Part shown: in pieces, positions 7,174 to 50,824 of the stretch
How positions within the stretch are numbered: position 1 is the stretch's first letter
How the letters are laid out: each line of letters begins with the position of its first letter
DNA from: Herbinix sp.
GTDB taxonomy: Bacteria; Bacillota; Clostridia; Lachnospirales; Lachnospiraceae
Assembly: GCA_029256105.1 (NCBI GenBank)
Contig: JAQSYO010000006.1
Coordinates: 124,001 to 188,000, forward strand
Direction of reading: 5' to 3'
Length of the DNA: 64,000 nt
Position numbers and translations under genes: made by a program
The notes under the pieces: model-generated
What the model saw: only the letters and a program-made list of their open reading frames with translations
What the model was told of the DNA's origin: nothing
Databases searched by the model: none

Positions 7174-7980
7174 TTATACTTTTAGCTCCATCAATTCAAA
7201 AAAGGTTATAATGCTCCCATCAATGGTTGTCACGTCACAGGTCTTAGCTCCCCATGGTTGAATTTTAATTTCAGTTATTTTTTCCCATCCATTCTTTTTA
7301 ACAAAGTCATATAACTTATCGATGCCCTCAATCAGCATAAACGCAACTACATTGTTTTGACTTTCGCCATAAAACATATGGATTCCCTTAAATGGTGCTA
7401 TCTGCATATTTACCAATTCTCCCGGAACCGGTAATACGCACCCATAGGTACCAGCACCAGCTTCGTTTCTTGCATCAATCCCCGCATACCAACCCAAAAC
7501 ATCTTCAAACCATTTAGCTGTTTTATCCATATTTCTAGTATGATATACAGCTCCGTTTTCTTTTACTGTATAACCTCTTTTACTTAATTCTTGCATTGCA
7601 TCCTTCTTCCCTTCTAACGTATTTTTAATCGATATTTTGGCAAATGATTTTAATTGACTCTCCTGATTGCGCGCTATCGTAGGAGTCACCTCATGGAAAC
7701 GAGTAAAAGCGCGTGAAAAACTTTCTGATGTTTCGTAGCCATATTTAAAAGCAATATCAATCACTTTCGCTTCCGAAGCTTTCAGATCTATTCCCGCAAG
7801 TGTAAGCCTACGATTTCTTATATATTCACCAATTGTAATGTTTGATAGAATTGAGAAAATTCGTTGAAAATGACAACTTGACATATAGGCCTGACTTGCA
7901 ATGACATCGTACTTTAATTCATCCAGAATATTGTCTTCAACAAAATCTATAGCTCTTTGTACTCTCACTATCGTATCCAT
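7174..7980 (-). CDS. AraC-type HTH fused to a VOC (glyoxalase-like) domain
   Basis: A 268-residue protein. Residues 1-105 form an AraC/XylS double helix-turn-helix at the N-terminus (YDVIASQAYMSSCHFQRIFS, IDIAFKYGYETSESFSRAFTRFHEVTP). Residues 135-268 form a VOC fold (VYHTRNMDKTAKWFEDVLGWYAGI ... VVAFMLIEGIDKLYDFVKKNGW ... TCDVTTIDGSIITFFE). The usual AraC order has the sensor first. Here the VOC domain replaces the GyrI-like effector domain of SoxS/Rob-like regulators and probably binds a small ligand or drug. It is monocistronic with a strong terminator behind it. The target gene is unknown. Confidence 0.85.
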   Translation of the reverse strand: MDTIVRVQRAIDFVEDNILDELKYDVIASQAYMSSCHFQRIFSILSNITIGEYIRNRRLTLAGIDLKASEAKVIDIAFKYGYETSESFSRAFTRFHEVTPTIARNQESQLKSFAKISIKNTLEGKKDAMQELSKRGYTVKENGAVYHTRNMDKTAKWFEDVLGWYAGIDARNEAGAGTYGCVLPVPGELVNMQIAPFKGIHMFYGESQNNVVAFMLIEGIDKLYDFVKKNGWEKITEIKIQPWGAKTCDVTTIDGSIITFFELMELKV

Positions 7981-8110
7981 TCATTCACCCTCCAATCTAT
8001 TAGAAGTATATCTTAATGGCAATTTATTTTCATGATTTTATATGCTTAGTTTTGTCATATAAATAAGATATCTGTTGTATTGCTATTTATTAACATATTT
8101 TATACAGTTT

Positions 8111-8602
8111 TTACTGCCTATTATTAATTTCTTTAAGTCTTTTATAATTAATAGGTGCCGAAACTAAGTAAGACCAAAAGCAAATCCATAAATTCCAATC
8201 TTTTATTTTGGATATAGTTCTGAAATGCACCAAACCAAATCGGTTATTTATATTACCAGGGCATACATCTTTCTCTTCTCCCGCATATCGAACCCGACAC
8301 CAAACGTGTCCTGAACTGTGTTCCTTAACCACAAAACCTTCATATACTTTTTCTGGAATAATGTTTTCTGTGGCATATACTAGTTTACTTTCGATCCTCA
8401 AATTTTTAAGAATTCGATTTAGGGTACTTGCTTGATGCCAACAATAACCGTAACCTTTTTCAAACGCTTTTGATGGAAAATCAAAGGAATTAGAATAGGA
8501 ATACTTCATATGAGTGTTGACTATCCTTTGTGCAAATTCTATTAACTCAATCCCTTCTAATCCCGAGTCCTTACATTTCGCGACAGCTTCCTCAATATTC
8601 AT
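8111..8602 (-). CDS. transglutaminase-like cysteine protein
   Basis: A 163-residue protein with a papain/transglutaminase-like triad visible as C54 (GYGYCWHQASTLNRIL), H99 (SGHVWCRVRY) and D112 (KDVCPG). The Cys-containing helix followed by a His strand and an Asp is the core of bacterial transglutaminase-like domains. There is no signal peptide or membrane segment. Such domains act as proteases, peptide-N-glycanases or cross-linkers; the substrate is not evident. GAGGATT upstream supports the ATG at 8602. It is a single gene. Confidence 0.7.
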   Translation of the reverse strand: MNIEEAVAKCKDSGLEGIELIEFAQRIVNTHMKYSYSNSFDFPSKAFEKGYGYCWHQASTLNRILKNLRIESKLVYATENIIPEKVYEGFVVKEHSSGHVWCRVRYAGEEKDVCPGNINNRFGLVHFRTISKIKDWNLWICFWSYLVSAPINYKRLKEINNRQ

Positions 8603-8793
8603 TATTGAATCCTCACATTTTTTTAATTATAAGAAATTAATAATTATTTCCACTACACAGATCTCATTCTCTTTTTATAACAAAGCAATGACTTAATTTC
8701 CCATTATTATAACAAATATTATATATAAAGTCAGTAAAAAATCTTAAGTCGGAGTTTATTTAAGGAGATTCATTTGACACTAGGCATAAAAAA

Positions 8794-8817
8794 CCCCTCT
8801 CACAGAAATGAGAGGGG
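8794..8817 (-). terminator. intrinsic terminator of the formate/nitrite channel gene
   Basis: The stem cccctctca/tgagagggg (8794-8802 with 8809-8817, 6-base loop) is followed on the minus strand by a run of six T. It sits 16 bases beyond the channel gene's stop codon. Confidence 0.9.
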
Positions 8818-8833
8818 GCGCTGGTTAATGTTT

Positions 8834-9622
8834 TTATTCTTCTGGTGACTTTTCAATCTTCTCGATATCACGATAAGCTAACAAATAATTAGCTCCTGAC
8901 ACAATAATGCCTCCTCCGATAAAATTACCAATGGCTGCAACAGAAAGATGATAGAATATTTCTAATAACGTAATATTGGCTCCATTAAAGTATCCAGCAA
9001 AGAGATAATACATGTTGGCAACCACATGCTCTGTCTGACTAAGAATAAAAACCGTAATCGCCAACCATACGACTACCACTTTACTGATCTCCTCGCGGCA
9101 GCTATAGGCAAGACATACACCGGTGGACACAATAATATTACATAATATACTGCTGGCAAGAAGCTTTCCGATTGGTAAATGAACCTTATGGACAGCTTTC
9201 TCAATTACCAGTGCCATAGTCTTATCATCAAATGACCCAGCTACCCCAGTCAAATAAGCGATGAAGATGGCTCCGATCAGATTTGCAATCAGTATCAAAA
9301 ATAATATTTTTAAGATCTTATTAATCTTAGTATGTCCAGTATAAACAGCAAGCATAACCATGCTGTCACTGGTATAGAGTTCAGCCTGCATTAATAAAAT
9401 TGCGATAATACCGACAGGGAAGACTAACGCACCAAGGAAGTTACCAAGACCGGGATCCGTTAGTCCTGCTGCCAATTTCAAGTAACCGATTGCTCCAATT
9501 GAAATGTACATTCCTGCTAGAATACCCTGCACGAGGAGAATCAGGAAGGTTTTATTTGCTTTATGTTTACTTTGATATAATATGTATTCCGCAAGTGCTT
9601 TGGGTCCTGAATAGGTTTTCAT
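8834..9622 (-). CDS. formate/nitrite transporter (FNT) family channel
   Basis: A 262-residue membrane protein with six hydrophobic helices and FNT signatures: AELYTSDSMVM, NLIGAIFIAYLTG, the broken-helix segment CNIIVSTGVCLAYSCREE and SQTEHVVANMYYL, which carries the central pore His. FNT pentamers pass formate, nitrite or hydrosulfide; in a fermenter formate export/import is the most likely role, though no pyruvate formate-lyase is next door. The upstream region has an extended -10 promoter and a Crp/Fnr-type palindrome at -41.5, suggesting anaerobic or metabolic activation. It is transcribed alone and ends at a strong terminator. Confidence 0.92.
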   Translation of the reverse strand: MKTYSGPKALAEYILYQSKHKANKTFLILLVQGILAGMYISIGAIGYLKLAAGLTDPGLGNFLGALVFPVGIIAILLMQAELYTSDSMVMLAVYTGHTKINKILKILFLILIANLIGAIFIAYLTGVAGSFDDKTMALVIEKAVHKVHLPIGKLLASSILCNIIVSTGVCLAYSCREEISKVVVVWLAITVFILSQTEHVVANMYYLFAGYFNGANITLLEIFYHLSVAAIGNFIGGGIIVSGANYLLAYRDIEKIEKSPEE

Positions 9623-19256: not shown

Positions 19257-19565
19257 GCCCTAAGCTAAAAAACGTTAGCTTAGGGCGAATGTATCATCCG
19301 TGTTACCACCTAAATTCAGTAAGGATACGTTGTATTCCTTATCTGCTCTCACTCAGTACTTTAAAATATGCACATCGCATATTAGAAACCTATACCGATT
19401 CTGATATAACGGTCAGATACCCGACGAAGTCTACTTATCATATAGCATATAATGTATGATGTTCGATTCGTAGCTCAGAAACTGCTTCCATATTTTTTTC
19501 ACGAGAATTTACACCATCCATTCTCTCTCTTTGCATCGAAAAATATGTACTCCTTTTCGTCATCG
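19257..19565 (-). promoter_or_regulatory. T-box riboswitch, alanine specifier (GCT)
   Basis: On the minus strand a Stem I region begins near 19565. A distal GGTGTAAATTC loop segment and the specifier GCT (19474-19472, within GAGCTACGAA) follow. The T-box core AGGTGGTAACACGG occupies 19311-19298. The leader ends in a 12-bp terminator stem, 19257-19268 with 19275-19286, followed by six T. It lies 45 bases upstream of alaT. Uncharged tRNA-Ala should pair with specifier and T-box, form the antiterminator and permit transcription. Confidence 0.92.
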
Positions 19566-19709
19566 CTTATTGAAAATAATGTTAATCCCTAAAGAGATAT
19601 TTGTCAAGAAAATATTGAAACTTTCAAGAAGTTTTTCACTTATTTATCCGTCATGGAACTATGAATCCTTCATAAACTAGTAATCTAGTTTAGTCGACAA
19701 AAGGTACTA

Positions 19710-41839: not shown

Positions 41840-44365
41840 TTATGCAGGCTCTTCCTCGCATGCTTTTATCATATCACTCTCAACTAGCTCAACGAAGATC
41901 TGAACTAATTTGGGATCAAACTGCAGTCCGGCTTGATCTTTCAATATCTTTAATGCATCACCAACTGAGTATGGCTTCTTATATGGTCTTGAGGAAATCA
42001 TTGCATCAAAGGAATCTGCAATACATAAAATTCTAGCAGAAATAGGGATATCTTCCTTCGCAATTCTTCTAGGATATCCATTACCATCATACCGTTCATG
42101 ATGTCCGATTACTGCTGGTATCACATAATCAAGTGACGGAAGATGCCGAATGATTCCAATAGAGCTCTCTACATGCCCCTTTACTATTTGATATTCTTCA
42201 TCCGTTAATTTTGCCGGTTTATTAAGCACATGCTCCGGTATACCAATTTTTCCAATATCATGCAACAAAGCGGCTTCACGTACAATTTCAACACAGTCAT
42301 CATTCATGCCAAACGCATATGCAAGTTCTGTCGCATAATATGCTACATTTCTTGAGTGATTAAAAGTGTAATGATCCTTTGTATCAATAGCCGCAGTAAG
42401 TGCATAAATTGTTGATGCATATTCTGAATAGATATTTTCGCGATGTTTATGGAAATCTATAATATTTCTTTCAACCTTCTGCTCCCTACCGGTATAAACC
42501 ATTATTGCATTCTTACCATTATGTTTTACGGTATAAATTGCCATGTCTGCATTCTCGATTAATTGTTTTACATTACTCGCAGCATATGGTATGGAACATA
42601 TACCTCCACTTACCGTTAACATCTTTAGTGCATAATCGGATTCTCGTTTGTTCATATTAAGAATTTGTTTTCTAATAACTTCAGCCAGATTTCTTGCAGA
42701 GAATATATCATATGCCGGAAGAATAATTGCAAATTCTTTACCGCTATACCTGGCCACATAGCCATTATTACCAACACTTGCATTGATAATTTGTGCCACA
42801 TTCTGAAGAGCAACATCCCCTTCCTTATTACCATATAATTGATTGTATAATTTAAAATCATCAATATTTAGAATAATCAAGGCTAAGGAATCATCTTTAA
42901 ATTTATCATACTCCTGTTGCAGTATTTCATAAAAATACTTGCGATTGAGAAGTCCGGTCAACTCATCAATACGCGCTTCCAGATATACCTTTTCAAATAA
43001 TTTGGAGTTTTTAACTGCAATTGATCCAATCGAATTAATTGAATCTAAAAAGCTAATATCTTTAAAAGTAAAATTTGCTTTCTTCTCCTTTTCAGCGAGA
43101 AGAATAATTCCTATCATACCGCTATCATCTTTTAGAGGAACCACACATTCGATATCTAATTCCTGTAGCTGTTTTTTCTCGTTTTCCCACATAGACTTAT
43201 AAGCAATGGTTCTTTTAAAATCTTTCATTAAAAGACACTCATTGCTATTTTCCAAACATGTTACAAAGGGATTATCTATTTTAATTGTAAATCTATTTAA
43301 GTCAAGTGGGTTAGTACAATGTACTATTTCATAACAGGTGTTATTTTTATTAGGGATGCAGATAAACACTTTTTTAACTGCTATTGTATTATGGATTACT
43401 TCTGCAAGTTCCTCCAATATCTCTTTCACATTCAGACTTTTGGAAATATTTAAGCTGAATTCTTTGAGACTCTCAGCTTGCACTACTTCATCGTTAACAA
43501 ATACCATATCAATAAAGCGCTTCATTATAAAATAAATGAAGAAAATAAAGAAGCTGAAGACGAAGGTAATAACCAGAATTGTCTGCTCCGTAGAAAGAGA
43601 ATAATTATTAACAATTAATCGTTCTAGCGGATTTATTAAATTGGTAAAAATAGCAACGGACAATCCTGCTGTAATAGCATAACAGCTTCCTCTCGACAAA
43701 AGTAACTTTAATCGAAATAAGTTTCTCTTATACAAAGCAAAAAACATAAAAAACGCATTGAAAACACTAGCCAGGATATCCGTAGGAAACCCCTTAAAGT
43801 ATGGGATCAAGATACAAATATGTCCAACGAAAAGAATGATAATACCTATGATAATTGGCATGAATTGCTTTTTTGTCAATGTATTTTTCTTGCTGTAACT
43901 AAGTAAGAAATACAGCATATTCAAAAATACTAAAACGAATATAGCAAAAAGAATTGCTACCGGCCATGTATAATGATATACAAATACTGTTTCACCATTT
44001 TGTTTTATCGGCTCCGGAGGAGCTAAAAAGAATCCTGTAAGAACATTGATGATATTAACTGCAATCAAAATCACTAACCAGATTTTCTTTACAAATACAT
44101 TCCGATACTCTGCGAATTCACATACAAAATTAATAAATGAATATGGTAGCATAGTCAATCCTAGGATAGAAACATTATACCAAAAGTCTACCGATGGCGG
44201 CAGTTGCCTTCTCATACAGTAGGCTCCACCGGTCCATAAAATTAGCACAACTAGTATAAAAAGGAAAGAATTAATGATACGATTCTTTTTCGCTGCAATT
44301 AAAGCAAGGAATAAGAGTGAATAGCATAACAATGCAATAACTGGTACATATGCAAAATTACCCAT
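41840..44365 (-). CDS. multi-TM receptor with GAF-like, degenerate GGDEF and HD-GYP domains
   Basis: About 841 residues. Residues 1-290 contain eight or nine hydrophobic helices of the histidine-kinase 7TM-sensor type. A GAF-like region follows, then a GGDEF fold whose active-site loop reads ARYSGKEF instead of GG(D/E)EF, so cyclase activity is unlikely. The C-terminal HD-GYP domain is intact: HSRNVAYYATELA, LLHDIGKIGIPEHVLNKP, GHHERYDGNGYP and ADSFDAMISSRPYKK. It should degrade c-di-GMP in response to a membrane-sensed signal. ATG at 44365 overlaps the GH3 stop as TAATG; ATG at 44374 is also possible. Confidence 0.9.
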   Translation of the reverse strand: MGNFAYVPVIALLCYSLLFLALIAAKKNRIINSFLFILVVLILWTGGAYCMRRQLPPSVDFWYNVSILGLTMLPYSFINFVCEFAEYRNVFVKKIWLVILIAVNIINVLTGFFLAPPEPIKQNGETVFVYHYTWPVAILFAIFVLVFLNMLYFLLSYSKKNTLTKKQFMPIIIGIIILFVGHICILIPYFKGFPTDILASVFNAFFMFFALYKRNLFRLKLLLSRGSCYAITAGLSVAIFTNLINPLERLIVNNYSLSTEQTILVITFVFSFFIFFIYFIMKRFIDMVFVNDEVVQAESLKEFSLNISKSLNVKEILEELAEVIHNTIAVKKVFICIPNKNNTCYEIVHCTNPLDLNRFTIKIDNPFVTCLENSNECLLMKDFKRTIAYKSMWENEKKQLQELDIECVVPLKDDSGMIGIILLAEKEKKANFTFKDISFLDSINSIGSIAVKNSKLFEKVYLEARIDELTGLLNRKYFYEILQQEYDKFKDDSLALIILNIDDFKLYNQLYGNKEGDVALQNVAQIINASVGNNGYVARYSGKEFAIILPAYDIFSARNLAEVIRKQILNMNKRESDYALKMLTVSGGICSIPYAASNVKQLIENADMAIYTVKHNGKNAIMVYTGREQKVERNIIDFHKHRENIYSEYASTIYALTAAIDTKDHYTFNHSRNVAYYATELAYAFGMNDDCVEIVREAALLHDIGKIGIPEHVLNKPAKLTDEEYQIVKGHVESSIGIIRHLPSLDYVIPAVIGHHERYDGNGYPRRIAKEDIPISARILCIADSFDAMISSRPYKKPYSVGDALKILKDQAGLQFDPKLVQIFVELVESDMIKACEEEPA

Positions 44366-46011
44366 TATAAACATCTCCCTCCTACTAGCTTATAATCTAT
44401 ATTCTCAAAACGTAGTAATTCCATAACTTCAAAGTTCGTTGGATTAATATGACTCAATTTTTTATTCTTCTGTTTTTCATATCCACTAAATGTACCACAT
44501 TTCAAAATTGTAATATCCAAAGGATCCATCCCAAGGATACGTTTCAAATCTTTATAGTCTTGATCAATATACTTAAAATAAATTGATAAATGCTCCTTCA
44601 AAATATCCTTACTCATTCCCGTATTGATTAGAGAATCACTTTTCATTTCAACATACATGTGCATGAAAGGACGATTTTGCTTGTTGAATTCTTTAACCGC
44701 AATCCAATTTTCAATAGGTAATCCAGATAAGTCTACAACTTCTTGAATAGAATGTTCCGTAATACGGGTAAAACCTGCAATATCAATAATTGTTGGAATA
44801 CGATCGATATATTTAAATCGTGGGATTTTTGTCTGATCCTCACTATTCTCTAGTCCAATACACAGGTATACATCTCCAACGCGGTATCTGACAAAGGAAC
44901 CACCTTTTAATACGGAAATCACTAACTCATATTTCTCTCCGGGTACAACCTCATTCATCAGATAAGTGTTTGGTTGATATGTAGAATCATTCAAACTTTT
45001 ATACATCTCTGCTTCCGGAATGAATTCATAGAAGCAAGAATCCGGGAAGAAGTACATTCCATTCCGTGTCCAAGTTTCTGTACCAATCAGTGTGGGTTCC
45101 GTACCTGCGAATATTTCCATGGGACGTATTCCCCATAAATCTTCCAAGGTATCTTTATAACAATTATTATCTGTTCCAGCGCACATAAAACCTTTTAGTT
45201 TAAATAAATCCTTTGGTTTAAGTTCTCTGTTCTCTTTTTTGCATCGATACTTTGCGATAGCAAACTTCAGAAGTATCTTGGGTGAGTAACTTAGCCAACT
45301 ATCCTTTTTCGTATTACCACCGGATTTTGAGGAACCTTTCCCGAAGGAAGAAAAGCTTAAACTAATGAAGCAGGTAACGCTTCCCAAACCAAAAAACAAA
45401 TCAATTCCTTTTTTCAATCCCATTTTAAAGCCTAATTTATTCCGTTCGCTAAACGACATTTTAATTGCTTCTTTTACCGTCGGTAAATATTCAATTCCGA
45501 TTTCTTCATTTAATACCAATGGTAGAAGACCCGTCGCATAAGGAAGTGGTGCCAGACCATAAAGCATCTTATCCGTTGCCCGAACATTAAAAGAACCCTT
45601 TTTCGGGCTTGTTGCAAGCATAAGGCATGCAATTGTATTATTACGGTATGTATCCATCATACTTTTCGTATAAGGAGCAACCTTAATCGGATGTTTGCCT
45701 CCTTCCCATGTAGTCTGTATCCATATAATGGGAAGATCAGGCAGCATTTCTCCTTTTTTCTGGAGTAAAACATCCGCATAATTTTCATATGTAGTCAAGG
45801 GAACCATATGACGAAATTCTTCAACTGTTTTTGGTTTCTTTCCTTTTAATATCTTCTTACCAAGCTCACATTCACTCCAAAGTGAAATCTGCTCAGACAT
45901 TAAACGATATTGTATATTCATATAAGAATCTATATCTAGATCCAGAAATCCACAATACTCTTGCCAAATCATATCATGTTGTTTTTTCTTCAATTTCTCT
46001 TCAAATTTCAT
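44365..46011 (-). CDS. GH3 auxin-responsive-promoter family acyl-acid amido synthetase
   Basis: A 548-residue ANL-superfamily adenylate-forming enzyme of the GH3 type: MVPLTTYENYADVL, IWIQTTWEGGKHPIKVAPYTKSM, IFAGTEPTLIGTETW, YELVISVLKGGSFVRYRVGDVY and FTRITEHSIQEVV. Plant GH3 proteins adenylate a carboxylic acid such as indole acetate or jasmonate and join it to an amino acid. The bacterial substrates are unknown. It ends inside TAATG shared with the receptor gene and begins 18 bases after the ICMT-like gene, so the three form one coupled operon. Confidence 0.88.
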   Translation of the reverse strand: MKFEEKLKKKQHDMIWQEYCGFLDLDIDSYMNIQYRLMSEQISLWSECELGKKILKGKKPKTVEEFRHMVPLTTYENYADVLLQKKGEMLPDLPIIWIQTTWEGGKHPIKVAPYTKSMMDTYRNNTIACLMLATSPKKGSFNVRATDKMLYGLAPLPYATGLLPLVLNEEIGIEYLPTVKEAIKMSFSERNKLGFKMGLKKGIDLFFGLGSVTCFISLSFSSFGKGSSKSGGNTKKDSWLSYSPKILLKFAIAKYRCKKENRELKPKDLFKLKGFMCAGTDNNCYKDTLEDLWGIRPMEIFAGTEPTLIGTETWTRNGMYFFPDSCFYEFIPEAEMYKSLNDSTYQPNTYLMNEVVPGEKYELVISVLKGGSFVRYRVGDVYLCIGLENSEDQTKIPRFKYIDRIPTIIDIAGFTRITEHSIQEVVDLSGLPIENWIAVKEFNKQNRPFMHMYVEMKSDSLINTGMSKDILKEHLSIYFKYIDQDYKDLKRILGMDPLDITILKCGTFSGYEKQKNKKLSHINPTNFEVMELLRFENIDYKLVGGRCL

Positions 46012-46029
46012 CTCATCGTACCTCCCTTC

Positions 46030-46593
46030 CTACTTTAATGTTTGTAGACAACGCTTTATACTTTTATTATTTGGAATCAAAAACGGAGTAACTTTTTTAT
46101 ATTCAGCATAATTTACAAAAATTTTCATAAAAGTCCAATTATCTTGAAAGATAACATAGAATACGTTCAAAAGGCTAAAAATGACTGCCGCAATAAGAAG
46201 TAGCGGTAGCTGAAGTGTTATACCAAAAAATGCATAAAAACCAATAAACCAAAGAACTCCCGGATGTCTACATAAAGCATAAACTCCACTTTGACAAACT
46301 TTTGGCGAGCCTTCCGTCTCAATATACGTATTTTTAAATGGCAACGCGAAGAATAAGGTATATATTAGCAGACTAAAAAACAGAGCAGTAAACACTCCGA
46401 ATATTCCCATTCTTACTATATTAATCTGAATCAAATCCAACGAGGTAATAATAATTCCACCGGTGGCCACTACAATCAAAAAAAATCCAATAAAAAAAAA
46501 GCAATTTAATATTTTTCGTTTAAAAACTATGCTATTTATGTCATATATAACAAAGAATATATAAGCTAAAAAGCCCAAAAAAATGTATGTCAT
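46030..46593 (-). CDS. ICMT/PEMT-like membrane methyltransferase
   Basis: A 187-residue membrane protein with about five hydrophobic helices. The C-terminal signature is GVYALCRHPGVLWFIGFYAFFG, where the RHP motif binds SAM. A later segment reads YVIFQDNWTFMKIFVNYAEYKKVTPFLIP, matching the isoprenylcysteine carboxyl methyltransferase/phospholipid N-methyltransferase fold. It methylates a lipophilic acid, amine or phospholipid. It is the first gene of the operon with the GH3 synthetase and the HD-GYP receptor, so its substrate may be the GH3 product or precursor. Confidence 0.82.
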   Translation of the reverse strand: MTYIFLGFLAYIFFVIYDINSIVFKRKILNCFFFIGFFLIVVATGGIIITSLDLIQINIVRMGIFGVFTALFFSLLIYTLFFALPFKNTYIETEGSPKVCQSGVYALCRHPGVLWFIGFYAFFGITLQLPLLLIAAVIFSLLNVFYVIFQDNWTFMKIFVNYAEYKKVTPFLIPNNKSIKRCLQTLK

Positions 46594-46921: not shown

Positions 46922-47392
46922 ATGAACTCAAAAAAGCTAGGACCACTAATTATATCTATATTAATACCGATTGCACTTGGCATGTTTGCCAGTCTGCTCA
47001 CTAAAAATACTGTAACGATATATTCGCAACTAATCAAACCGCCACTTAATCCACCAGCTTTTATTTTTCCAATTGTTTGGACAATTCTCTATATTCTAAT
47101 GGGCATATCCTCCTATTTAATATACTCCTCTAATTCACCGCTGAAGACTAGGGCCTTAAATATATACGGTGCCCAGTTAATCTTTAATTTCTTTTGGAGT
47201 ATTATATTTTTTGGATTTAATATGTATTTATTAGCTTTTATCTGGCTTGTTGTGCTTATTCTACTAATTATATGGATGATCGTTATTTTCTATAGAATTA
47301 GTCCAATTGCAGCCTATCTTCAAATTCCTTACTTACTTTGGTGCCTATTCGCCGCATACCTTAATTTTATGGTTTATTATTTAAACCGGTAA
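46922..47392 (+). CDS. tspO: TspO/MBR family membrane protein
   Basis: A 156-residue protein with five helices and the TspO pattern LIKPPLNPPAFIFPIVWTILYILMGISSYLIY, then a Trp/Asn-rich segment (AQLIFNFFWSIIFFG) and a final helix LLWCLFAAYLNF. TspO binds porphyrins and is linked to tetrapyrrole handling and stress responses. A strong AAAGGAGGG precedes the ATG. It is a single gene, convergent with a lipoprotein gene across a terminator. Confidence 0.92.
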   Translation: MNSKKLGPLIISILIPIALGMFASLLTKNTVTIYSQLIKPPLNPPAFIFPIVWTILYILMGISSYLIYSSNSPLKTRALNIYGAQLIFNFFWSIIFFGFNMYLLAFIWLVVLILLIIWMIVIFYRISPIAAYLQIPYLLWCLFAAYLNFMVYYLNR

Positions 47393-47536: not shown

Positions 47537-48274
47537 TTAATCCAGTAGCTTATACATTAGAATGCTTTCGATCTTTTCATTTTTGATATGAAATTTCATT
47601 CCATCAACATAATTTACCGGTAGATATTGAAAATCATCCTCTTCATTGGCTGCTCCATTCCCAATCAAATTTCCTTCCGGATATGCTTCCTTCAGTTTTT
47701 CAACACTGTCTCCGACTTTTATATTTCGTATTGTGGAATAGCCTGTGTCAGTAATTTTAATTTGAAAAATATAAAACTTCTCGTCTTCAGTTGTATTTAT
47801 GGTTTTTATCTCAAGCCCTGGAAATTTGTATTGCTTTTCCGTGAAGCCGATAAGTGTATCCATATTTAACCCATCATCTAAAGAATAGGTGTGCGATTTG
47901 ATTTCGTCCGCTTTGCCCAGAATACCTTCCAACTTTTCATCATCAACAATATCAGAAATAGCAACTGTATTGTCGTTATAAACAAATGCCAACTCTTTTA
48001 GAATAACATTTCCGCTCTTTGGAATAGTACCCTCCTTTATTACATCGGTATCGGTATTATTGTCAACTGTATTATCATCTGATATATCGGTTGATGTATC
48101 CGTTGTATCATCTTCAGCTTCCTTATCAGTTGCCGGAGCAGATGTTGGAGCAGATGTTGGAGCACTTGTTGGAGCAGTTGACGAACCAACCGGATTTTTC
48201 TCGCACCCCGCCAGAACTGCTATACTTAATATCATAATTACAATTATTGTTCCTAATTTTCTTTTTGCTTTCAT
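47537..48274 (-). CDS. lipoprotein of unknown function
   Basis: A 245-residue protein with signal sequence and lipobox VLAGC (lipidated C24). A linker follows with four-residue APTS repeats (12-base DNA units) and an Asp/Thr-rich stretch to about residue 78. The folded part includes NVILKELAFVYNDNTVAISDIVDDEKLEGILGK and IRNIKVGDSVEKLKEAYPEG, the latter resembling a repeat found in other secreted clostridial proteins. It lies 92 bases downstream of the two-component kinase gene on the same strand and may belong to its operon or regulon. Confidence 0.8.
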   Translation of the reverse strand: MKAKRKLGTIIVIMILSIAVLAGCEKNPVGSSTAPTSAPTSAPTSAPATDKEAEDDTTDTSTDISDDNTVDNNTDTDVIKEGTIPKSGNVILKELAFVYNDNTVAISDIVDDEKLEGILGKADEIKSHTYSLDDGLNMDTLIGFTEKQYKFPGLEIKTINTTEDEKFYIFQIKITDTGYSTIRNIKVGDSVEKLKEAYPEGNLIGNGAANEEDDFQYLPVNYVDGMKFHIKNEKIESILMYKLLD

Positions 48275-48366: not shown

Positions 48367-49767
48367 TCACGTTATTGGAAGAATTAATGAAACTGTAGTT
48401 CCCACCTCTATTTCACTTTCGAACACCAAATGCCCATTAAATTTCTCAACAATCTCTTTACAAATTGGAAGTCCCAGACCTGAACCCTTCGCAAAATTTG
48501 AATTCTTAGCTCTGTAAAATCTCTCCTGAACCCGCGTAATGTCACTCTGGTCGACTCCAATACCCTGATCACTTATTTTGATAACTGCTTCCGTTTGCAT
48601 AGCAAAAGTTTCAACCCTTATATGACTTTTTGCATTAGAATACTTTATAGCATTATCTAAAACATTCGCAATTGCGTGTGACATTAATATTTTATTTACA
48701 TTGGCAAAAACCGCTTTCTCCAGATTTACCTCCAATATTATTTCATTTTTATCGGCTTTTGATTTCATCTCTAAAACCACACTACCCGTTAATTCGGATA
48801 AATCCGTTTTCTCGGTGTTAAGATTTGCTTGATCTGCTTTGTCAAATCGAGATAGCATCAATAACTCATTAATGAGCATTGTAAGACGATCTGATTCATT
48901 TACAAGATGAAAATATATCATTTGTAAATCCTCATCCTCATTTTCGCCTTCGTATAAATATTGAGAAAAGCCTCGGATTGCAGCCAGCGGTGTTTTCAGC
49001 TCATGAGAAACATTGGAAACAAATTGCTTCTGATACTGTATATAGTCGTTTAATTGAATGCCCATCTGATTTAGTCCCGCAGCAAGCATTCCCAGCTCAT
49101 CTTTCCTATTCAATTTAACCTGCTCGAATTGCTGTTTTGAAAACCTTTCCGTAGCACCAAGAAGATATTTAATTGGTTTTGTAGTTTTACGGGCAATATA
49201 CAAGCTTGAAAGCGTTATAAGAATAATAAATCCTCCTGCGCCAATAAACATTATATACCGTATCTTATCCATGATATCATAAAAATAAGAGATGTTTTCA
49301 ACAAGCTCGAATACATAGACATTTTGATAATATTGGTCTTGAATCGGGATTGCAAAATAAATCAATTTATTATCCGTAACTGTATAAGAATAATTTCCTT
49401 TAAGGGCATTTTCAATATTTCCCTTAAAAATCAAAGGCTTCCCGTTACTAATTTTAATTCCATCCACCGCTAATCCCTGAATTCTCAGGTCACTATCATA
49501 TATTCGCACTTCCTTAGCAGAAGATTTTAAAGCCTCCAGAGCACTTTTCGACACATCGGATGCAAGTCCCTTAGAAGTTGATTTTTCATGTTTTGTAAGT
49601 ATTTCACGAAATGTTAACTCGCACATATCCGCCTTTTCCATCATTTGTTTTTCTATTGTCACAAAACTATAGTAATCTATGGCTTTATTCACGGTGATAA
49701 TAATAATGGTAAAGGATAATACAGAGAAAAATAAATAATTTAAAAGAAGCTTAGTTGCATATTTCAA
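48367..49767 (-). CDS. sensor histidine kinase
   Basis: A 466-residue kinase. An N-terminal helix (about 8-28), an extracellular domain (29-168) and a second helix (170-191) lead into a HAMP domain (KPIKYLLGATERFSKQQF) and the H-box FVSNVSHELKTPLAAIRGF with phospho-acceptor H255. ATPase boxes are VLDNAIKYS (N), ISDQGIGV (G1) and GSGLGLPICKEI (G2). It senses an extracytoplasmic cue, possibly cell-wall stress, and phosphorylates the regulator encoded just upstream. The ATG overlaps the regulator's stop by 4 bases. Confidence 0.95.
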   Translation of the reverse strand: MKYATKLLLNYLFFSVLSFTIIIITVNKAIDYYSFVTIEKQMMEKADMCELTFREILTKHEKSTSKGLASDVSKSALEALKSSAKEVRIYDSDLRIQGLAVDGIKISNGKPLIFKGNIENALKGNYSYTVTDNKLIYFAIPIQDQYYQNVYVFELVENISYFYDIMDKIRYIMFIGAGGFIILITLSSLYIARKTTKPIKYLLGATERFSKQQFEQVKLNRKDELGMLAAGLNQMGIQLNDYIQYQKQFVSNVSHELKTPLAAIRGFSQYLYEGENEDEDLQMIYFHLVNESDRLTMLINELLMLSRFDKADQANLNTEKTDLSELTGSVVLEMKSKADKNEIILEVNLEKAVFANVNKILMSHAIANVLDNAIKYSNAKSHIRVETFAMQTEAVIKISDQGIGVDQSDITRVQERFYRAKNSNFAKGSGLGLPICKEIVEKFNGHLVFESEIEVGTTVSLILPIT

Positions 49768-50462
49768 ACAGATTCACCTCCAAGCTGGTAACCAAATCCG
49801 TAGATGGTCTTTACATACTTCGGGCTTTCCGCATCATCCTCCAACTTCTTCCTAAGTCGCATTATTGTCATATCAACGCAACGGCTGTCACCTAAATAAT
49901 CATACCCCCATACAATATCAAGGAGTTCATCTCTTGTGAAAATTTTTTTTGGTTTTTTCAACAGGGTTTCAAGAATTTTAAATTCATTTGCTGTCAATAA
50001 AACCCTAGTTCCATTTTTAAGTACCATTCTTGTTTCCAAATCAAATTCCAGTTCCCCATATGATATTTGATCCACTTCACCATTGTTTGTTAGATTGTTA
50101 TGTTCATATCTTCTTAGTACAACCTTTATCCTAGCTATGAGTTCTCTATTATCAAAAGGCTTTGTAATGTAATCTTCTGCTCCAAGCTCGAGCCCTAATA
50201 CCTTATCAATAATTTCATTCTTTGCAGATAACATGATGACAGGAATTACATATTTTTTTTCAATTTCCTTGCATAGATCATAGCCTGAGTAGTCAGGCAG
50301 CATTAAATCCAGTAAAATGAGATCCGGTTGAAAGGAATCAATCTCAATAAGACCAGTCCTACCATTCTCTGCTGTTTTCACTTGATAATTTTCTCTTTTG
50401 AGAACTAACTCAAGTAAATCTCTAATTGCCAATTCATCATCAATCACGAGAATCTTTTTCAC
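49764..50462 (-). CDS. OmpR/PhoB-type response regulator
   Basis: A 232-residue regulator. The receiver domain starts KKILVIDDE with acidic D8/D9, phospho-acceptor D52 (LILLDLMLPD) and IMLSAKNE. The C-terminal winged helix ends LGDSRCVDMTIMRLRKKLED ... YVKTIYGFGYQL. The start is GTG at 50462, with AGGAGGTGG nine bases upstream; frames extending to 50549 would add residues before the receiver and put that site inside the gene. It is the first gene of the kinase operon. Confidence 0.94.
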   Translation of the reverse strand: MKKILVIDDELAIRDLLELVLKRENYQVKTAENGRTGLIEIDSFQPDLILLDLMLPDYSGYDLCKEIEKKYVIPVIMLSAKNEIIDKVLGLELGAEDYITKPFDNRELIARIKVVLRRYEHNNLTNNGEVDQISYGELEFDLETRMVLKNGTRVLLTANEFKILETLLKKPKKIFTRDELLDIVWGYDYLGDSRCVDMTIMRLRKKLEDDAESPKYVKTIYGFGYQLGGESV

Positions 50463-50824
50463 TTGAAACCACCTCCTATCTATCAGTAATAGCTTATCGT
50501 TTACAAAATACCAGATTAAAATTAATATTTTCCTTATCATACCCTGCACGTTTCTATCTATACCATGTTGAAGGTTTGTTATTTTATTAAAGACAGTAAA
50601 AATAAACTAGTTATAGTCGAACCCTATTTTCACATTCTAAGCCTCAATTTTTCATCCATACTTTCGATTCCATGTGAGCCTCTACCTATATTATACTACA
50701 TAACGCAAGTATATTTCTCACTCTCGTTCTGATTTTATATTACTATATATTCAAAATCAACTCCGGATAAAGTAACTCATCATACACTCCTCAAGCCTGT
50801 TTTGTACTAAAAGAACTGTCCAAA

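Follow-up and report, generated by a model that had tools for sequence, protein, structure and literature searches.

The operon described here lies on the minus strand of a contig of Herbinix sp., a member of the Lachnospiraceae (GenBank assembly GCA_029256105.1, contig JAQSYO010000006.1), within a stretch of 64,000 nucleotides (positions 124,001 to 188,000 of the forward strand) that was analysed as a whole and is called the window; all coordinates refer to it. It consists of three genes which code, in this order, for a probable membrane methyltransferase, an enzyme with the GH3 fold and a seven-transmembrane (7TM) receptor with a GGDEF and an HD-GYP domain, the domains of cyclic diguanosine monophosphate (c-di-GMP) signaling. 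An original prediction made from this DNA had suggested that the first two genes could build a small amphiphilic signal which the third one could read. The features of the operon are the following.

46030..46593, minus strand: gene 1, probable small integral-membrane methyltransferase of 187 amino acids with an RHP...QD motif, ICMT/PEMT-like (open reading frame (ORF) list, AlphaFold2 model, fold search)
44365..46011, minus strand: gene 2, GH3-fold enzyme resembling acid:amine ligases, 548 amino acids (ORF list, Pfam, AlphaFold2 model, fold search)
45682..45714, minus strand: GH3 motif I region, residues 100-110, TTWEGGKHPIK, rebuilt compared to SSGTSxGxxK (alignment of relatives)
41840..44365, minus strand: gene 3, receptor with the order 7TM, GAF, degenerate GGDEF, HD-GYP, 841 amino acids from the common start (ORF list, Pfam)
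43709..44338, minus strand: membrane sensor region of the HisKA_7TM type, residues 13-222 of the 844-residue ORF (Pfam, PF16927)
42509..42973, minus strand: GGDEF domain with N for the metal-binding Asp and SGKEF for GG[DE]EF (Pfam, alignment)
41906..42391, minus strand: HD-GYP (HD_5) domain in which every checked HD-GYP residue is kept (Pfam, alignment)

A conserved three-gene unit

The leftward course of the three genes, with gaps of 18 and -1 bases as originally predicted, is confirmed by the ORF list and by the junction of genes 2 and 3. Eighteen bases separate gene 1 from gene 2. The longest ORF of gene 3 spans 41840-44374 (844 amino acids from the first ATG at 44374) and in the ORF list shares 10 bases with gene 2, while the start at 44365 (MGNF...), which is common to the related loci L041 and L042, gives 841 amino acids and a one-base overlap, TAATG, of the GH3 stop with the receptor start. 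A sequence resembling a ribosome-binding site, AGGAGGGAG, lies directly 5' of this TAATG. The three genes would be carried by one mRNA; a promoter scan gave a site count not above that of shuffled sequence and is uninformative.

To place the operon among its relatives, the GH3_M family model was searched in 291 genomes of the class, yielding matches in 19, and the window GH3 protein was compared with the loci found, which fell into distant GH3 proteins (at most 52 bits) and a close set scoring 530-882 bits. When genome contigs were scanned with the alignment of this close set, 222 relatives came up, the best 80 of which were used. The resulting 86 loci (L036-L121) were chosen via the GH3 gene alone with their neighbours unselected, and some of them are close kin. 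Conservation of the order methyltransferase, GH3, HD-GYP receptor in relatives had been set beforehand as a test of the original prediction, and it was found: on the same strand, the GH3 gene has the receptor on its 3' side in all 86 loci and the methyltransferase on its 5' side in 84, the two loci without it (L082 and L105) being those where the GH3 gene starts at most 96 bases from a contig end. Median gaps, measured on the longest ORFs, were 1 and -2.5 bases; the spacing fell outside the windows used in L041, where the GH3 frame is split, and in L096, where an ORF start was called too early. The same picture emerged in a sample of the phylum, in which 13 of 398 genomes hold the GH3 gene: five of the 12 loci (L168-L172) duplicate the DNA of L053, L094, L098, L104 and L112, and the seven that were counted (L173-L179) have the receptor adjacent in 7/7 and the methyltransferase in 6/7, the contig of the remaining one (L177) beginning within the GH3 gene.

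Moreover, GH3, methyltransferase and 7TM region occur in an identical set of seven of the 291 class genomes, the window's own among them, with methyltransferase scores of at least 198 bits in these seven and of at most 38.3 bits elsewhere. Pairwise distances of the three proteins co-vary over 83 rows (r 0.94 for GH3 and receptor, 0.84 for methyltransferase and receptor, 0.77 for methyltransferase and GH3; no permutation exceeded 0.27), which co-inheritance of the genes would lead one to expect. The operon is a conserved unit of Clostridia and other members of the phylum. Chance adjacency is ruled out by the adjacency counts, the added phylum loci and the identical genome sets. A larger conserved cluster is ruled out as well, since only the three operon genes are constant across the neighbourhoods: the neighbour search, for which 82 of the 86 loci were usable, returned no fourth constant gene, the next families reaching 11 and 10 loci.

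Within the window's genus, the GH3 gene was found only in the window's own genome and in G012 among 34 genomes (G000-G033), so its presence there is patchy. Carriers among the 80 best relatives include Sinanaerobacter, Parasporobacterium, a groundwater record labelled Acetobacterium, Coprococcus comes, Eubacterium ramulus, Hungatella, [Clostridium] citroniae and clostridioforme, Gemmiger and Fusibacter. The record of L094 is labelled Fusobacteria, a label that is doubtful because identical DNA (L169) sits in a genome of the window's phylum. A search for mobile carriage gave no plasmid match at E 1e-10. As separate observations, one contig of the viral collection IMG/VR bears all three operon genes (L180, 4461-9214), and in G012 the GH3 frame is broken in two near its C-terminal end (L041, 5739-7335), by assembly error or decay.

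The three proteins

The GH3 assignment of gene 2, part of the original prediction, holds at the level of family and fold. The window protein matches GH3_M with 48.3 bits, over the Pfam cut-off of 23.6, and the GH3 N-terminal domain with 22.7 bits, under the cut-off of 23.6 (25.1 bits, over the cut-off, in the genome search); both Pfam domains were matched in 39/39 relatives at E 0.01 or better. A profile comparison against 15 other GH3 proteins gave a probability of 99.7. The AlphaFold2 model, with a predicted local distance difference test score (pLDDT) of 85.3, retrieved the acyl-CoA ligase 4r1m as best Foldseek match (E 8.8e-21) and plant GH3 structures from E 3.7e-19. Among the matches listed, query TM-scores ranged from 0.45 to 0.66, and the identity to plant GH3 enzymes was 14-17% over the structural alignments. 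The protein is thus predicted, from AlphaFold2 model and Foldseek, to have the adenylating fold. The GH3 tree has long outgroup branches with possibly false joins and was used only to set the family apart from 15 other GH3 rows and to group near relatives.

On alignment, the active-site residues divide into kept and rebuilt ones. Motif II (YGSSE) is kept as G-T-E, with Thr304 and Glu305 in 93/93 members and Gly303 in 92/93, and the RYRxGD residues of motif III (GLYRYRLGD) are invariant (93/93). Motif I, which we take to be the site holding the phosphates of ATP, departs from the canonical form, most members reading TTW[EK]GG....K: T100 and K110 occur in all 92 readable members and W102 in 88, and the fourth position, Thr or Ser in the canonical motif, is charged (E, K or R) in 92/92. 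The deep members L174, L175, L176 and L178 have TSG[KR][TFAS].....K instead. The canonical SSGTSxGxxK has been described as nucleotide motif I of GH3 enzymes (PMC12493201). The rebuilt motif I reads, on alignment, as a fixed remodelling and not as decay. About a hundred GH3 columns are invariant among 39 diverse rows. Because it is rebuilt in every readable member, ordinary GH3 chemistry is not to be assumed, and it is mainly for this reason that the protein is not simply filed as a GH3 amido synthetase. An ornithine lipid synthetase of the OlsH type was also considered as its family and rejected, the window protein scoring 12.3 bits on the NCBIfam OlsH equivalog NF052613 against a cut-off of 620.

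Gene 1 had been called ICMT-like, a name that can be upheld at most for its multi-helix fold and RHP motif, and not by family models. None of the Pfam families reaches its cut-off (PEMT 15.6 bits; ICMT, PF04140, 10.8 against 24), and when members were searched singly at E 0.01, PEMT was matched in 13 of 45 and ICMT in 4. The AlphaFold2 model of the protein, METHYLTRANSFERASE, has a pLDDT of 94.0; in the fold search no match reached E 0.001, and Ma-ICMT (4a2n) came first with a probability of 0.97 and a weak E of 0.28, followed by steroid reductases, by the eukaryotic ICMT and by several chains that are unrelated. The RHP motif is present in 89/89 readable rows, and Gln150 and Asp151 in 87 and 85 of 90. 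Gene 1 is probably a membrane methyltransferase of the ICMT/PEMT-like superfamily, which may act on N or O.

For the receptor, the predicted sensor of 7TM kinases, broken GGDEF loop and intact HD-GYP were all recovered. HD_5 (143.2 bits against 27.2), GGDEF (133.2) and HisKA_7TM (44.4) exceed their Pfam cut-offs in the window protein; GAF stays under its cut-off with 12.2 bits and was matched in 16/30 relatives at E 0.01, and PF16927 (HisKA_7TM) in 28/30. Arg55 of the sensor is kept in 87 of 90 readable sequences. The catalytic residues of HD-GYP (HD, K, H, HH, GYP) are present in the window and in 89/89 readable sequences, with K709 in 88/89; the four rows without a readable HD-GYP comprise three that run off their contig and L176, which has no such domain. 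The latter, from a deep branch (G368, 7488-9467), combines an N-terminal region and GAF with an intact GGDEF, and its output could be c-di-GMP synthesis. In L059, L064, L118 and L179 the receptor frame is in two pieces, which may reflect draft error, frameshift or separate proteins.

The window GGDEF domain has N503 at the position of the metal-binding Asp, together with SGKEF, so that both metal ligands are gone. Over 91 readable sequences, the pair formed by the metal-Asp position and the third position of the loop is N,K in 74, S,K in 7 and D with D or E in 10 (L037-L040 and L173-L178), mixed pairs being absent; in the main clade both ligands are therefore lost jointly (81/91). Asn511 and Asp520 are kept in 92/92. 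From PleD, we assume metal binding at the two changing positions and a correspondence of Asn511 and Asp520 to guanine contacts. Judged by these residues, what is probably an active cyclase in the deep members seems to have lost catalysis in the main clade, where the domain may bind a guanine nucleotide with Lys replacing the metal. The window's genome has 23 GGDEF matches, 10 HD_5 matches and 6 c-di-GMP-I riboswitches (none of these six on the window's contig), and a c-di-GMP network is thus present in it.

Neighbouring genes and riboswitches

Upstream of the methyltransferase, a DegV gene on the same strand occurs in 9 of 84 loci (L052, L054, L056, L063, L084, L096, L100, L113 and L114), in seven of them at a gap of at most 51 bases; upstream sequence of at least 1000 bases was available in 72 of the 84 and was shorter in 12. 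The five DegV proteins tested are PF02645, and the closest solved chain to that of L114 is 3nyi, a 'fat acid-binding protein', with FakB1 chains lower in the list. FakB proteins bind fatty acids, as described in the literature. The upstream DegV proteins are of three types with 20-27% mutual identity, which occupy three separate regions of the GH3 tree, with 5 label changes, no fewer than 4 of them forced by well-supported branches; this spread is a more cautious measure of the DegV link than an enrichment test. Elsewhere in the neighbourhoods DegV accounts for 3 among 729 non-core genes (Fisher p 1.5e-7 for upstream enrichment, in a test that treats related loci as independent and counts the upstream genes themselves in the background of 729). 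Ten loci have a same-strand ORF of at least 100 amino acids within 60 bases upstream; seven of these ORFs are DegV, and the three others are an FBPase_2 gene (L058), an ArsC-like gene (L060) and a 125-residue ORF in L056. These DegV/FakB-like neighbours point to a fatty acid as substrate.

Riboswitch control was considered as a general feature of the operon and rejected: a covariance model run over 87 sources and Rfam run on the window and 39 loci gave one direct case and one indirect case. The direct one is L043 (Parasporobacterium paucivorans), where a c-di-GMP-I riboswitch (60.6 bits against 35) ends 69 bases before the methyltransferase start and is followed by a hairpin and then, at a distance of about ten bases, by a T run; as the folding z-score is only -1.1, we do not claim a clear terminator. 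In L062 (5216-7997) a c-di-GMP-I riboswitch precedes a gene with matches to solute-binding and 5'-nucleotidase C-terminal domains, which in turn precedes the operon, possibly forming a longer transcript under c-di-GMP control. Other riboswitch matches (two in L042, one in L098) lie several kb from the operon.

In the window itself, a TspO/MBR gene (46922-47392) is divergent from the operon, and for neither this upstream gene nor the SDR gene downstream did phmmer (E 1e-4) return a match up to 9 kb from the operon in any of the other 86 loci. Further along, a histidine kinase (HAMP-HisKA-HATPase) overlaps by 4 bases a gene that reads as response-regulator-like (48367-50549 together); the kinase lies upstream of a small ORF (47537-48274) that looks lipoprotein-like by eye. 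A T-box leader is found at 19278-19572 on the minus strand (100.1 bits).

A putative lipid-like signal and its alternatives

We propose, with a probability of roughly 0.45, that the unit makes and senses a small lipid-like molecule whose presence is reported as a drop in c-di-GMP. The GH3-fold enzyme would activate a free, probably fatty, carboxylic acid and join it to an amino acid or another amine, after which the membrane methyltransferase would cap the resulting amphiphile, most simply on the carboxylate by ICMT chemistry and less likely on a nitrogen. The 7TM receptor, made from the same mRNA, would bind, within the membrane, either the product or a precursor of it and switch its own HD-GYP phosphodiesterase, and in the main clade the non-catalytic GGDEF domain could act as a regulatory guanine-nucleotide site with Lys in place of the metal. 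ICMT methylates the carboxylate of a lipid-bearing amino acid, and it is the resemblance of an N-acyl amino acid to such a carboxylate that suggests this chemistry here. We infer each of these chemical steps, as well as the identity of the ligand, its role as a signal and the nucleotide role of GGDEF, from the domains and their arrangement.

Parts of this arrangement have precedents. One of them is RpfF/RpfR of Burkholderia, a synthase of the diffusible signal factor (DSF) paired with a c-di-GMP phosphodiesterase receptor (PMC6361424; review PMC8846402): a synthase gene stands beside a one-component receptor with GGDEF and phosphodiesterase domains, and a fatty signal acts on c-di-GMP. A synthase-type gene adjoining a c-di-GMP receptor is likewise found in 86/86 of our loci, but RpfF is an enzyme with thioesterase activity and the domains of RpfR are PAS-GGDEF-EAL, in contrast to the GH3-fold enzyme, membrane methyltransferase and 7TM-GAF-GGDEF-HD-GYP receptor of the present operon. 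In the PhcB/PhcS quorum sensing of Ralstonia (PMC8578825), the signal, methyl 3-hydroxymyristate, is a lipid methyl ester made by a methyltransferase with the sensor in the same operon, although PhcS is a histidine kinase and the phc operon, as given in the abstract, has no GH3 enzyme. OlsH, a GH3 enzyme that converts a free fatty acid to N-acyl ornithine without CoA or ACP, belongs with OlsG and OlsI to the planctomycete pathway for trimethylornithine lipids (PMC12493201); it shares with our system a GH3-like enzyme, an operon with a methyltransferase and the joining of a free fatty acid to an amino acid, whereas it retains TSGTTQGATK as motif I and its operon contains the OlsI acyltransferase and, in the excerpt, no named receptor. 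Plant GH3 acyl-acid amido synthetases have the fold and motifs II and III in common with gene 2, unlike which they have an unrebuilt motif I and no bacterial operon with a receptor, at the low identity given above for the matches listed. Together with the DegV/FakB-like neighbours, the OlsH precedent makes an acyl-amino product plausible, and to this extent, next to the conservation of the unit, the original idea of synthesis plus sensing is partly supported; its chemistry is less secure, GH3 activity not being assured and methylation being possible on N as well as O.

Several observations weigh against a signal that is made and sensed by the operon. Adjacency is no proof that the receptor senses the product, and plain common descent would be expected to give correlated distances too. 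The rebuilt motif I leaves adenylation not assured, and the methyltransferase resembles PEMT no less than ICMT, with a weak fold match. A DegV gene is missing from the upstream position in 75 of the 84 loci, and the nine cases are partly kin. Rfam finds no riboswitch before the window operon, and one is operon-adjacent in 1 of 87 sources, next to the indirect case. The neighbour search returned no conserved exporter or signal-processing gene, although a membrane-soluble product might need none. Finally, the intact GGDEF without HD-GYP in L176 implies that lowering of c-di-GMP is not universal.

Gene content does not separate a signal set from membrane-lipid remodelling or from the inactivation of an acid. 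The GH3-fold enzyme and the methyltransferase might make a structural methylated aminolipid, in the way that OlsH and OlsG do for ornithine lipids, with the 7TM receptor monitoring the state of the membrane instead of a secreted signal. For such a role, OlsH offers a precedent with a methyltransferase in the same operon (PMC12493201), PEMT was matched by 13 of the 45 methyltransferase members, and DegV/FakB proteins are described as serving membrane lipid synthesis in Gram-positives. We nevertheless regard it as possible and rather unlikely, as, in our judgement, the genes for a structural lipid would not usually have a c-di-GMP receptor invariably beside them (86/86), the neighbour search shows no further constant gene such as an OlsI-like O-acyltransferase, and the score on the OlsH model is far under its cut-off. 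It is less likely still that an acid from outside the cell, be it fatty, aromatic or of the bile type, is sensed by the receptor and inactivated by the two enzymes, which would conjugate and cap it. Plant GH3 enzymes inactivate auxin, the DegV neighbours are of a fatty-acid-binding kind, the names of many carriers (Hungatella, Coprococcus, Eubacterium ramulus) are those of gut bacteria, and Arg55 of the sensor (87/90 readable) could hold a carboxylate; however, the groundwater record labelled Acetobacterium, Fusibacter and Sinanaerobacter are carriers too, so that no single host-derived acid is obvious, and the neighbour search shows no constant exporter or hydrolase.

A different doubt concerns gene 2 itself, which might be a GH3-like protein without adenylation that uses another acyl donor, e.g. 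an acyl phosphate, or serves as a binding partner regulating the receptor. The Trp at a Gly position of motif I (88/92) and the charged residue at the Thr/Ser position (92/92) would fit this, but the invariance of Thr-Glu in motif II and of RYRxGD in motif III (93/93), the TSG[KR] of the deep members, which suggests graded change instead of decay, and the hundred or so invariant columns in 39 diverse rows make it improbable. The made-and-sensed lipid-like molecule remains our preferred reading. Its fullest version is an autoinducer widespread in Clostridia, common gut species among them, in the form of an N-acyl amino acid with a methyl cap or a related lipid amide, with the 7TM receptor lowering c-di-GMP and the main-clade GGDEF as a metal-free GTP gauge that weighs the signal against the guanine-nucleotide state; in all its parts together, this is speculative and, in our judgement, doubtful.

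In full-text searches of open-licence PMC papers, excluding preprints, none of the titles and abstract openings listed described this operon. Its parts and the synthase-receptor layout are known; the way they are combined, how widely the set occurs and the two remodelled sites are undescribed in the literature searched. In Clostridia, which are major gut and anaerobic bacteria, the operon offers a candidate pair of small-molecule signal and receptor that can be tested, and it ties bacterial GH3 enzymes, the products of which are mostly unknown, to a specific receptor. It also presents a clean case of a GGDEF domain turned, by paired loss of its metal ligands, from catalysis to possible nucleotide sensing. 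N-acyl amino acids have been described from gut Clostridia (PMC12493201), and the operon would provide a genetic handle on these compounds should its product be one of them or the corresponding methyl ester.

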